DNA of 64,000 nucleotides from Candidatus Praeruminimicrobium purgamenti (GTDB taxonomy: Bacteria > Elusimicrobiota > Endomicrobiia > Endomicrobiales > Endomicrobiaceae). The translations under genes and the position numbers were made by a program. The stretch covers positions 1 through 64,000 of the forward strand of contig JAHDQW010000009.1 of NCBI GenBank assembly GCA_018433585.1, in the 5' to 3' direction. Shown here in pieces: positions 34,362 to 63,771 of the stretch. Position 1 is the first letter of the stretch. The number at the start of each line of letters is the position of its first letter. The notes beneath the pieces were generated by a model. The model ran no database searches. It had not been told where the DNA came from and saw only the letters and a list, made by a program, of their open reading frames with translations.

Positions 34362-34369
34362 GTTTTAGT

Positions 34370-34440
34370 TCCGAGATAGTGTAATGGTAGCACAAGGGAA
34401 TTTGGATCCCTTCGTCTAGGTTCGAATCCTAGTCTCGGAG
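34370..34440 (+). tRNA. tRNA-Gln (anticodon UUG), probable prophage integration site
   Basis: The cloverleaf is complete: acceptor TCCGAGA/TCTCGGA, D arm GTGTAATGGTAGCAC, anticodon stem AGGGA/TCCCT with loop ATTTGGA (TTG), T arm TAGGTTCGAATCCTA, discriminator G. CCA is not encoded. Prophage sequence begins on its 3' side with no further host gene, the usual arrangement when an integrase uses a tRNA 3' end as attB. Confidence 0.95.
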
Positions 34441-34463
34441 TACTACGAATAAAATCACAAAAC

Positions 34464-56980: not shown

Positions 56981-57253
56981 AATTGATTTTAATGTTTTGT
57001 AAATGAAATGTTCGGTTAAACCGGTACGGCGGCGGATAAGGCGTCTACCCCACCCAAGCTTGTAATGACAGAATAAAATAAGCCTTTCGTTTTTACAAAA
57101 TTTATCAAGTCCTATACTGTCCTTTGTCCTCTCAAATTCAAGATATTCTTTTAAAATATCATTGTTTTTAAACAAGACAGTAGCGTCCTGATATTTGTAT
57201 TTTATCGGCAGCTTATTTATTTTTTTTTGTTTTTTAAGATATTTACTTACCAT
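56966..57253 (-). CDS. Small basic helix-turn-helix protein
   Basis: The 95-residue Lys/Arg-rich protein ends with LILFCHYKLGWGRRLIRRRTGLTEHFIYKTLKSIQNRF, which reads like a sigma- or transposase-type helix-turn-helix. It overlaps the end of the replication gene by seven bases and precedes the terminases. A late-gene activator would fit this position, but no named family is recognised. Confidence 0.6.
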   Translation of the reverse strand: MVSKYLKKQKKINKLPIKYKYQDATVLFKNNDILKEYLEFERTKDSIGLDKFCKNERLILFCHYKLGWGRRLIRRRTGLTEHFIYKTLKSIQNRF

Positions 57254-58470
57254 TTTTTTGATTTTAAGACGACAATTAAATTTTTTAACTGTTCAAGCCA
57301 AAGGGTTTTATATTCGCTCACATGCGCTAAAGCGTTTAAATTTCCGTACTGTTTTTTTAAATCGGCAAGCATAACGTCAAACTTTACCGTCAACAAATCT
57401 TTCTCGACAGGCTTTTTCAAAATCGTTTCCGCCCGTTTTTGCACTGTTTTTTTACGCTTAATATTTTCAGCCACAAGCGCATTAATCGACGACGAGAACA
57501 CGCCTATTTCGGGTTTTCCGTACTGCCAAAGCGTCTGATCGTCCACCCACTCAAAAAAAATATTTATAATTTCTCTTGCTTTGTCTTCGCCAATGTCGCC
57601 CGACAGTTTAGAAAAAATCATCATATCTTTGCCGAAATTGTGCTTGTATGGGCTGCTGTATTTATCGCTAAAAACTTTATCCCAATAGCCGCAAATACGC
57701 TGCGTAGCGTTTGGAGAATCGAGCAAACTTCGTTTCTCTTTTTTCGGTTTCGTTTTTTGCGGTTGGTTAAAAAAGTCGTTTCCATTACTTTCGTTAGAAA
57801 GTAATAAGTCTTTTTCTTTATTACTGTTATCTTTATATATGTCAGACTTTTTTGATGTTTTTTCACTTTTTGCTTGTGGATAACTTGTACTTTTATATAT
57901 ATTATTATCCTGTTTTTCTTCTCTTATTGATTGTGAATAATTATTATCAATTTGGATAATTTCATTATCATTTTGGATAACTTTATTATCATTTTGGATA
58001 ATTTCCTTACTTTTTTCTTCTTTAATACTTTTTTCATTATTTGCATTGATTTTTGTATCGGTTTTAATGTTTTCTTGCAAATTATCAATTTTGATAATCG
58101 GATTATCATTTTGGATAATTTTCGCCGCTTTTTTTATACTTTTTAACTGCCATTTTTTAGCGTCTTTGTTGAAACCGTAAACGGTGCCGAACCTTGTTTT
58201 TTCACGTATTATAATTGCTTGATCCGCAAGTCTTTTTAAGCACCGCAACACGTTTGTTTTTGCAATTCCTGTCTCTTCTATAAATTTATCCAAAGATATT
58301 ATTGTCCGCCGGCGGCCGTAGCCGTATGTCATACGGAATATTAACATTAACATCTGAAAACTTTGTCCGGACAAATTTGTATTTGCCAGGTTAGTTAAAA
58401 TTTCATTTGCAATTTTTGTGTAGCCGTTTTCTAGTTGAGGAGTATCCTCGTCTTGTAGTATTTCATCCAT
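57247..58470 (-). CDS. Phage replication initiator, O-protein type
   Basis: The N-terminal 100 residues match the phage replication protein O domain (PQLENGYTKIANEIL, SGQSFQMLMLIFRMTYGYGRR, ISLDKFIEETGI), a winged helix that binds the origin. A long low-complexity linker follows, with repeated IIQNDN units translated from DNA iterons. A C-terminal region (GYWDKVFSDKYSSPYKHNFGKDMMIFSKL) would contact the helicase. The DnaB gene lies two genes upstream, as in P22 (gp18 with gp12). The start has AAGGA 10 bases before ATG. Confidence 0.85.
   Translation of the reverse strand: MDEILQDEDTPQLENGYTKIANEILTNLANTNLSGQSFQMLMLIFRMTYGYGRRRTIISLDKFIEETGIAKTNVLRCLKRLADQAIIIREKTRFGTVYGFNKDAKKWQLKSIKKAAKIIQNDNPIIKIDNLQENIKTDTKINANNEKSIKEEKSKEIIQNDNKVIQNDNEIIQIDNNYSQSIREEKQDNNIYKSTSYPQAKSEKTSKKSDIYKDNSNKEKDLLLSNESNGNDFFNQPQKTKPKKEKRSLLDSPNATQRICGYWDKVFSDKYSSPYKHNFGKDMMIFSKLSGDIGEDKAREIINIFFEWVDDQTLWQYGKPEIGVFSSSINALVAENIKRKKTVQKRAETILKKPVEKDLLTVKFDVMLADLKKQYGNLNALAHVSEYKTLWLEQLKNLIVVLKSKKW
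57875..58119. other. Candidate phage replication origin inside the initiator gene
   Basis: Five 18-bp iterons, each a dyad ATTATC-N6-GATAAT, lie within the linker-coding part of the O-type gene, as in lambda. Two DnaA-box matches on the minus strand stand beside them: TTATCCACA (57875-57883, exact consensus) and TTATTCACA (57932-57940, two bases from the first iteron). Between the third and fourth iteron is an 80-base T-rich stretch that could melt. This combination is more than codon bias would give; see findings. Confidence 0.7.
57943..58119. repeat. Five 18-bp dyad iterons
   Basis: Units start at 57943, 57964, 57985, 58081 and 58102. Within each group the spacing is exactly 21 bases. Four have perfect ATTATC and GATAAT arms; the second ends GATAAC. 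The N6 is ATTTTG in three, AATTTG and AATTTT in the others. They encode repeats in the protein, but the conserved palindrome is a DNA feature. Confidence 0.85.
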
Positions 58471-58847: not shown

Positions 58848-60191
58848 TTAATCTTTATCAAAAAATCTTGAAATTTCTTTTTTGAAAATCATAGGAACTT
58901 CGCAGGTTATCCCGTTCCTGTTTTTCTCGATTATTAACGTTGCGTCATTTTGTATAGCTTCATTGCTTTTATCGTAATATCCGTCTCTATGCACAAAAAC
59001 AACAACATCAGCGTCCTGCTCGATTGCTCCTGAATCTCTTAAGTCTGAAAGTCTTGGTTTATTGTTTTTTCTCCCTCTGTCTTCCGTTTGTCTGTTAAGC
59101 TGCGATAACGCAATAACAGGAATGTTCAAATCTCTTGCCAAACCTTTCAAATTTCGTGAAATTTCGCTCACTTCAAGCGCTCTGCTGTCTCTTTGTCTGT
59201 TGGAAGACAATAACTGCAGATAATCAATAATAATAAGTTTTAAGTCAATTCCCTGCGTTTTCAATTTGTTAAAAAGTTTCCTGCTCTCGATTCGGCAGTC
59301 AAAAACAGTCATATCTGACCTGTCATCAATAAATAAATTAATATCATTAAGTTTATTCATTGTTTGCGTTATTGATCCGAACTGTTGTTCAGCAATGTAC
59401 CCGCTTGCAATTTTTCGGCTGTTAATTTGAGACAAATTTGAAACAAACTTATTCATAAGCGATTCTTTGTTCATTTCGAGCGAGAAAATAGCGGCTGCAG
59501 ACGTTCTGTCGTCTTTGGCTACATTAAGCCCGATATTTAGCGCAAAGGTTGTTTTTCCCATGGACGGACGACCGGCAATTATAATTAATTCGCCTTTTGC
59601 AAGGCCGCCGAGCCTTTTATCAAAATTATCAAACCCGGTTCTCAAATTCGGTATATCTTTTTTATCAGCGACAAGCCTTTCAATGTTTTTCATTGTCGGC
59701 ACAATCATATCTTTAACGGCGACAAATCCGCCTTTTATTCCGCTTATAGCAACATCGGCAACAGACTTTTGCGCAAAATCTAAAATTGTTTTTGCGTCAT
59801 CGGCTCCGTCAAGTATCTTTTTATGGACCGTAGAACTAACGGTCAATAAATTTCGCAGCAATGCCTTTTCTTTTACTATATTTGCGTGAAATATTACATT
59901 GGCGGTTGTATCTATCGAATCTATCATTTGCGTTAATACAAGTCCTTTGCCTTTGCTTTCAAAATCCTTATCGCTTTGCATTTTTTCGGCAACAGAAATT
60001 ATATCTATCGGCAAATTGTTAATATATAAGTCTTTGCAAACTGTAAAGATTTTGGCGTGCAAATCAATATAAAAATCGTCGGAGCTTAATATAGTTAATA
60101 CGTCGCCGATATCGTTTTTTTCTATCATCATCGCAGCTAACACTGCCTTTTCGGCGTCTATATTTTGCGGCTGCAAATTTTTTTCAGTCAT
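58848..60191 (-). CDS. Replicative DNA helicase, DnaB family
   Basis: The 447-residue hexameric helicase has an N-terminal DnaB domain (NIDAEKAVLAAMMIEKN) and a RecA-type ATPase with Walker A GRPSMGKTT at 207-215, Walker B IIIDYLQLLS and the DnaB signature SDLRDSGAIEQDADVV. P22 likewise carries its own helicase (gp12), removing the need for host loader recruitment. No DnaC-like loader is seen. Confidence 0.94.
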   Translation of the reverse strand: MTEKNLQPQNIDAEKAVLAAMMIEKNDIGDVLTILSSDDFYIDLHAKIFTVCKDLYINNLPIDIISVAEKMQSDKDFESKGKGLVLTQMIDSIDTTANVIFHANIVKEKALLRNLLTVSSTVHKKILDGADDAKTILDFAQKSVADVAISGIKGGFVAVKDMIVPTMKNIERLVADKKDIPNLRTGFDNFDKRLGGLAKGELIIIAGRPSMGKTTFALNIGLNVAKDDRTSAAAIFSLEMNKESLMNKFVSNLSQINSRKIASGYIAEQQFGSITQTMNKLNDINLFIDDRSDMTVFDCRIESRKLFNKLKTQGIDLKLIIIDYLQLLSSNRQRDSRALEVSEISRNLKGLARDLNIPVIALSQLNRQTEDRGRKNNKPRLSDLRDSGAIEQDADVVVFVHRDGYYDKSNEAIQNDATLIIEKNRNGITCEVPMIFKKEISRFFDKD

Positions 60192-62999: not shown

Positions 63000-63347
63000 T
63001 TACCCCCTCATCGGCATAATTACATATTTATTTTCGTTATCTTCGACTATTATATGTCCTGGTAAATCGTATCTTAACCACATAGTCCTGCAGTAAGGTT
63101 CTTTGACTGGCTTCAATAACAAAGGGTTTGAATCGCAATTTAATATATATGCAGCTCTTTTATGTTGAGGAAATATTTTGTATGCTGACTTAAATAGACT
63201 ATACGGATTAATTTTTGCAAATTCGGGTAAATGATTGTCTCCCCAAACAGGATCCGTAATAATACTATCTACAGCCTCTATTTCAGGCATAATTTTACGA
63301 CAATCTCCGCAATATATAGTGATATTTTCAAATCTTTCAATTTGCAT
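63000..63347 (-). CDS. Short DNA methyltransferase-like protein, probably truncated
   Basis: The N-terminus ITIYCGDCRKIMPEIEAVDSIITDPVWGDN has the AdoMet-enzyme catalytic motif in the form DPVW (32-35). The middle (AAYILNCDSNPLLLKPVKEPYCRTMWLRYDLPG) matches phage amino-methyltransferases that are normally about twice as long. The frame ends at 115 residues with no continuation visible in the next gene. It is either a decayed or a minimal enzyme. It overlaps the Dam-type gene by 11 bases. Confidence 0.68.
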   Translation of the reverse strand: MQIERFENITIYCGDCRKIMPEIEAVDSIITDPVWGDNHLPEFAKINPYSLFKSAYKIFPQHKRAAYILNCDSNPLLLKPVKEPYCRTMWLRYDLPGHIIVEDNENKYVIMPMRG

Positions 63348-63771
63348 TTTGTTTGTCCTTAAAAATACATATCATACTGTCGTGCATGCCGCATTTATTA
63401 AATACTTTTTCTCCGTAAGTGTTTATGCCTTCAAATTTTACTCTTCCTCTTAAAAATCGTATTTCACAATTTGGTAAGATAATCTCATGAAATATTTTTG
63501 TTGACGTAGAAACCGGCAATAACATCACTATAATTTTTCCTTTTTTGAATTCTTCAAAAGCTTTTAAAATAAAAGCTTCTTTAAGTTTGCGGCTATACGG
63601 CGGATTGACAAAATTACACCCCCCCCACTCAATCTTTAAACCATCCCATTGCGTCAAATCGTGTTTAAGTGGGCAAGGGTCAAAATTAAATTTAAACTCG
63701 GCGGCAAGTTGTTCATACAGACTATCAGGAGTTTTCCAATCATCATTATTTCCTAAATTTCTGTTTTTCAT
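63337..63771 (-). CDS. Phage DNA N6-adenine methyltransferase, Dam type
   Basis: The 144-residue protein fits the phage Dam family: DDWKTPDSLYEQLAAEF, FNFDPCP (31-34), CNFVNPPYS (NPPY at 56-59) and VMLLPVSTSTKIFHEIILP, then EIRFLRGRVKFEG. It methylates adenine in DNA, probably to hide phage DNA from restriction enzymes. The start overlaps the TM micro-ORF stop (TAATG). Confidence 0.9.
   Translation of the reverse strand: MKNRNLGNNDDWKTPDSLYEQLAAEFKFNFDPCPLKHDLTQWDGLKIEWGGCNFVNPPYSRKLKEAFILKAFEEFKKGKIIVMLLPVSTSTKIFHEIILPNCEIRFLRGRVKFEGINTYGEKVFNKCGMHDSMICIFKDKQNAN

Follow-up and report, generated by a model that had tools for sequence, protein, structure and literature searches.

A candidate lambda-type replication origin inside the O-type initiator gene of an Elusimicrobia prophage, with host-like DnaA boxes beside its iterons

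O-type origins and the layout of the prophage locus

The placement of a replication origin inside the initiator gene is a well-known design, and only the arrangement of DnaA boxes described below is a potentially new aspect. Lambdoid Stx phages carry a P-type partner of the O initiator. In phage lambda, dyad iterons of about 18 bp with an A-rich centre lie in the linker-coding part of O, and an A+T-rich region of 40 bp comes after these O-binding repeats (PMC5043065). In vitro, DnaA protects two DnaA-box-like sites that lie downstream of pO (PMC3985674), and it stimulates pR (PMC7466680). The Stx phages P27 and 933W have more than four iterons in O, six being the number in Stx phages, and the outer iterons are needed for the origin to function (PMC7466680). 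In the Bacillota and Halomonas phages Mimir87, Spoks, SDFMU_Pfc and YPHTV-1, a Rep_O initiator adjoins a phage-coded replicative helicase. Outside the phages, RK2 oriV and the P1 iteron plasmids combine iterons, an AT-rich element and DnaA boxes (PMC4980987); plasmid iterons are direct repeats bound by monomeric Rep proteins (PMC5043065), whereas the repeats studied here are palindromes in a gene of the O family.

The window, a stretch of 64,000 nucleotides, contains the early region of an apparently intact prophage whose predicted genes include a repressor, a DnaB-family helicase, a terminase and a portal. Beyond the window, at contig positions 69783-69797, a second copy of the left attachment repeat follows closely on the gene for a tyrosine integrase (68622-69770), so the prophage comprises about 35.4 kb and runs past the window end. 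The initiator gene lies within the early region, and the helicase gene is situated upstream of it in the same orientation:

34427-34441, plus strand, left attachment repeat, 15-bp TCCTAGTCTCGGAGT at the 3' end of a tRNA-Gln (34369-34441)
57247-58470, minus strand, O-type replication initiator gene, product of 407 amino acids with Phage_rep_O (PF04492)
58848-60191, minus strand, phage-encoded DnaB-family replicative helicase (PF03796, E=7e-91; PF00772, E=3.2e-27)

The Phage_rep_O domain (PF04492) was found at residues 12-107 of the initiator with an E-value of 2.6e-21, above the cut-off, and the PHROG matches were DnaD-like or O-like. The protein consists of this N-terminal winged-helix DNA-binding domain, a predicted disordered linker (residues 115-251) and a helical C-terminal domain. 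The structure prediction reached a mean pLDDT of 43, so that its secondary structure alone is usable, and the disorder of the linker comes from this low-confidence model (pLDDT about 25). A PDB sequence search with the initiator yielded no O structure and only weak-score winged helices of the MarR/SlyA type. Searches in which the initiator or the helicase served as the single query protein returned no relatives, nor did a search for the exact iteron pair among viral contigs.

The closest relatives in our survey were the prophages L023, L025 and L027 of rumen Elusimicrobia, the last from a sheep-rumen genome within the host family. Their initiator is 37% identical over its whole length, and a helicase gene adjoins it as well (verified in L002, which is the L027 locus). 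Among the early-region ORFs scanned in our prophage, no helicase loader of the P or DnaC type was detected, and a DnaB-family helicase is encoded instead. A loader gene beside O, as in a lambda O/P module in the narrow sense, was thus not seen in these ORFs. The phage helicase likely replaces lambda P together with the host DnaB, and the absent loader gene is compatible with self-loading of the helicase or the use of a host factor.

The initiator gene contains five 18-bp palindromes of the form ATTATC-N6-GATAAT (starts at 57943, 57964, 57985, 58081 and 58102), and an AT-rich segment follows them in gene direction:

58102-58119, minus strand, iteron 1 (first in gene direction), ATTATCCAAAATGATAAT, coding for IIQNDN
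58081-58098, minus strand, iteron 2, ATTATCAAAATTGATAAT, coding for IIKIDN
57985-58002, minus strand, iteron 3, ATTATCCAAAATGATAAT, coding for IIQNDN
57964-57981, minus strand, iteron 4, GTTATCCAAAATGATAAT, one arm mismatch, coding for VIQNDN
57943-57960, minus strand, iteron 5, ATTATCCAAATTGATAAT, coding for IIQIDN
57888-57947, no strand, putative DNA unwinding element, lowest stability of any 60 bp in the origin region

The count, the 3+2 grouping and the exact 21-bp period within each group agreed with the preliminary description, except that the copy at 57964 ends in GATAAC and has a mismatch in one arm. The starts of the two groups are 96 bp apart, leaving a gap of 78 bp. Sites of the relaxed form [AG]TTATC-N6-GATAA[CT] were confined to these five in 120 kb of contig. 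The array lies about 350 bp inside the gene and encodes residues 118-176, which places it in the linker-coding part, as had been proposed.

The segment 57888-57947 ranks at the 99.2 percentile of instability in the window. Because these AT-rich 60 bp lie 3' of the array, as in the lambda layout, the locus has the polarity of lambda. A T-rich stretch between the iteron groups, noted earlier, is indeed present (58003-58080), but the least stable segment lies elsewhere; the gap is less likely to serve as the unwinding element than 57888-57947, and the element likely lies on the 3' side of the group of three iterons, flanked by the two DnaA boxes. The GC skew, proposed earlier as a check, showed no reversal at the site, though in the integrated state of a prophage none would be expected.

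The Phage_rep_O domain, dyad iterons in the linker, maintenance of the repeats at the DNA level (see below) and a 3' AT-rich region are all shared with lambda and bear out the earlier proposal of a lambda-style origin inside an O-type gene. The site is most probably the intragenic, lambda-type lytic replication origin of the approximately 35-kb Elusimicrobia prophage, with a probability of about 0.88 in our estimate. It differs from lambda in its arms (ATTATC/GATAAT instead of CCCTC/GAGGG), in having five copies arranged 3+2, in encoding its own DnaB helicase in place of P, and in consensus host DnaA boxes that bracket the AT-rich stretch. DnaA sites near the origin have also been reported for lambda (PMC3985674). 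With the Stx phages it has in common more than four iterons in O; their host is E. coli, however, and no consensus boxes beside the iterons are reported in the accessible part of PMC7466680.

Several other genes of the prophage were recorded. The window encodes a Dam-type DNA adenine methyltransferase (63337-63771), followed by a short ORF that matches DNA methyltransferases (63000-63347). The product of contig positions 64576-65304 weakly matches the Acb2/Tad1 hairpin domain (E=3e-4) and may have an anti-defence role; beside the O gene in L003 lies a gene for a protein of similar appearance. Contig positions 66979-67800 encode an HTH_3 repressor-like protein whose C-terminal part (residues 172-252) weakly matches Phage_rep_O (Pfam E=0.008; hhalign probability 82%). 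It may be a repressor and could then rival the initiator in binding the iterons.

Selection on the iterons and comparison with other O genes

The entire initiator gene was recoded synonymously in 20,000 trials with the phage's own codon usage and an unchanged protein. The recoded genes contained a mean of 0.16 iterons, and five were reached in none of the trials. A complete palindrome requires ATC as the second isoleucine codon of each iteron. This codon was used in all five iterons, but at only one of the 29 isoleucine positions outside them (p=2e-5), and the same bias was seen in L027 (4/4 in iterons versus 6/29 outside, p=0.005); both p-values overstate the strength of the bias, as copies in one array may share ancestry and are not independent.

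In L023, L025 and L027, which are about 94-99% identical at the DNA level, all four iterons are kept, with the same ATTATC-N6-GATAAT form, linker location and reading frame. Among the 24 differing positions in the 266 bases of the linker, two fall within the 72 iteron bases, one of them central and the other at the outermost base of an arm. Conservation beyond coding needs, the comparison suggested in the preliminary description, was thus observed: the arms are kept and third codon positions track the palindrome. The opposite pattern, arms that vary while the encoded amino acids are retained, was not found in the relatives, many of which have copies in different frames.

A survey of 101 Rep_O ORFs, grouped into lineages at 60% identity, revealed significant palindromic arrays of 3-7 copies in 57 of them, and the annotated iterons of lambda were recovered as positive control. 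Copies were read in two or more frames in 34 of these 57 genes, and 30 of the 34 iteron-bearing lineages had at least one multi-frame member. In L003, for example, the iterons encode LSRVI in one frame and IITGDN in another. In 29 of the 34 lineages, the AT content was higher in the 3' flank than in the 5' flank (p=4e-6). Iteron spacing in the wider family is typically 19-24 bp, but the closest relatives are irregularly spaced (93, 48 and 78 bp), and the 21-bp phasing was rejected as a conserved feature because of the irregular spacing in L027.

Among the O genes surveyed, another Elusimicrobia O gene (L004 and L009) has iterons of the sequence TTCTCAAAACGAGAA, which have the central CTCAAAACGAG in common with lambda, although the hosts belong to different phyla. 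A further O gene (L005 and L013) contains asymmetric direct repeats, ATGACAACCA, instead of palindromes, and these are read in two frames (MTT and NDNQ). No significant iteron array was detected within the O genes of Mimir87, Spoks, SDFMU_Pfc and YPHTV-1 (L029, L030, L031 and L145) or of the IMG/VR relatives L067-L084, and the origin of this group may therefore be located outside the O gene.

Two explanations other than an origin were weighed. The repeats might be protein motifs (IIQNDN) in the linker, for instance helicase-binding peptides, and the palindromes their by-product. All copies here and in L027 do share a single reading frame and encode similar peptides, so some protein-level constraint on IIxxDN is possible in this branch. 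As an account of the repeats themselves, the protein motif was rejected on the recoding, codon and reading-frame tests and is very improbable: none of the 20,000 recodings reproduced the array, the ATC bias recurs in both lineages, and most relatives read similar repeats in two or three frames, among them L003, L004, L021, Gifsy-2 and lambda. The recoding result, the codon bias, the arms kept in the relatives and the multi-frame copies argue that the iterons are selected as DNA and not as protein. The array might instead be an operator, used by the initiator to repress the operon that encodes it. Sets of palindromes can serve as operators when a winged-helix protein binds them. However, the iterons lie about 350 bp inside the gene, which is no promoter position, and their placement and AT-rich polarity are common to the proven origin of lambda and dozens of relatives, which makes an operator in place of an origin hardly probable.

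DnaA boxes beside the array

Two putative DnaA boxes bracket the AT-rich stretch:

57874-57886, minus strand, putative extended DnaA box, AAGTTATCCACAA, with the core TTATCCACA at 57875-57883
57932-57940, minus strand, putative DnaA box, TTATTCACA

Both had been reported earlier at 68 and 3 bases from the first iteron (57943). Their presence was verified, but the value of 68 was counted from start to start, and the gaps amount to 59 bp for the TTATCCACA box and 2 bp for the TTATTCACA box. The host box is likewise TTATCCACA, with three copies within 76 bp just upstream of the host dnaA. Pattern searches of the 1.86-Mb host genome counted 66 occurrences of TTATNCACA and exactly three of the 13-mer AAGTTATCCACAA, two of them beside dnaA and one at 57874-57886. 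At least two TTATNCACA boxes arose in 0.7% of the synonymous recodings, and the 13-mer box together with a second box in 0.08%. If exposed to host DnaA, the boxes are probably bound by it.

What such binding would do is less certain. Host DnaA at both boxes and the phage initiator on the iterons could open the DNA together, perhaps coupling phage replication to host DnaA. This is consistent with the identity of the core box to the host box, the distribution of the 13-mer, the rarity of the box pair among the recodings and the position of the least stable segment between the boxes, which thus adjoin the AT-rich element as in a plasmid-type DnaA origin; in iteron plasmids, DnaA boxes are used jointly with iterons and an AT-rich element (PMC4980987). 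The arrangement is not conserved in related origins, however: L023, L025 and L027 had no TTATNCACA within about 3 kb of their iterons, and a box near the array was found in just one other of the 57 iteron-bearing O genes. DnaA boxes as a family trait were rejected for lack of enrichment in these genes. As the match was moreover recognised post hoc in one genome, joint opening by both initiators is possible but rather unlikely. Alternatively, the origin is real but DnaA plays no part in it, and the DnaA-like sequences either arose by chance as by-products or are half or decayed iterons to which the phage initiator binds; the chances of this are about even. The iteron halves read TTATCCAAA, one base off TTATCCACA, and AAGTTATCCAAAA, read across iteron 4 and its flank, has a single mismatch to the extended box, so that box 1 could be a half-iteron. 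When the part of the window occupied by the prophage was scored with the iteron matrix, box 1 also came within the 13 best positions, and the relatives without boxes agree with this explanation. Against it, box 1 is the full 13-mer of the host dnaA locus, including the CA that sets it apart from the iterons, and box 2 scored poorly with the iteron matrix.

The combination of phage and host initiators envisaged in the preliminary description is therefore suggested by this one genome, while its boxes are neither conserved in the closest relatives nor a trait of the family. The contrast that had been drawn with lambda was overstated: the DnaA-protected sites downstream of pO (PMC3985674) and the stimulation of pR (PMC7466680) provide a precedent for a DnaA link near an O-type origin. 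Overall, a contribution of DnaA to replication at this site seems improbable, though far from negligible. Tentatively, lambda-type O iterons may here be joined to a plasmid-type pair of DnaA boxes that brackets the unwinding element; host DnaA would then cooperate with the initiator, and prophage replication may thereby be linked to the cell cycle of the host, the box having apparently been recruited in this lineage only.

Proposed initiation and significance

For the lambda-type origin, the following course of initiation is proposed by analogy. After induction, the N-terminal winged-helix domain of the O-type initiator would bind the five iterons in the gene that encodes it, probably with one dimer on each palindrome, and neighbouring dimers would build up an O-some-like complex. 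The AT-rich stretch at 57888-57947 would melt, aided by early transcription through it, and the C-terminal part of the initiator would recruit the phage's own DnaB helicase, which is encoded just upstream.

With this locus, the lambda plan of placing the origin within the initiator gene reaches the prophages of the Elusimicrobia, a little-studied host group. Evidence that such repeats are kept as DNA was obtained from sequence only, as most relatives read the same iteron in different frames, and by this property O-type origins may be located automatically in uncharacterised phages. Should the DnaA boxes work, the prophage would represent a natural case of one origin shared by phage and host initiators.
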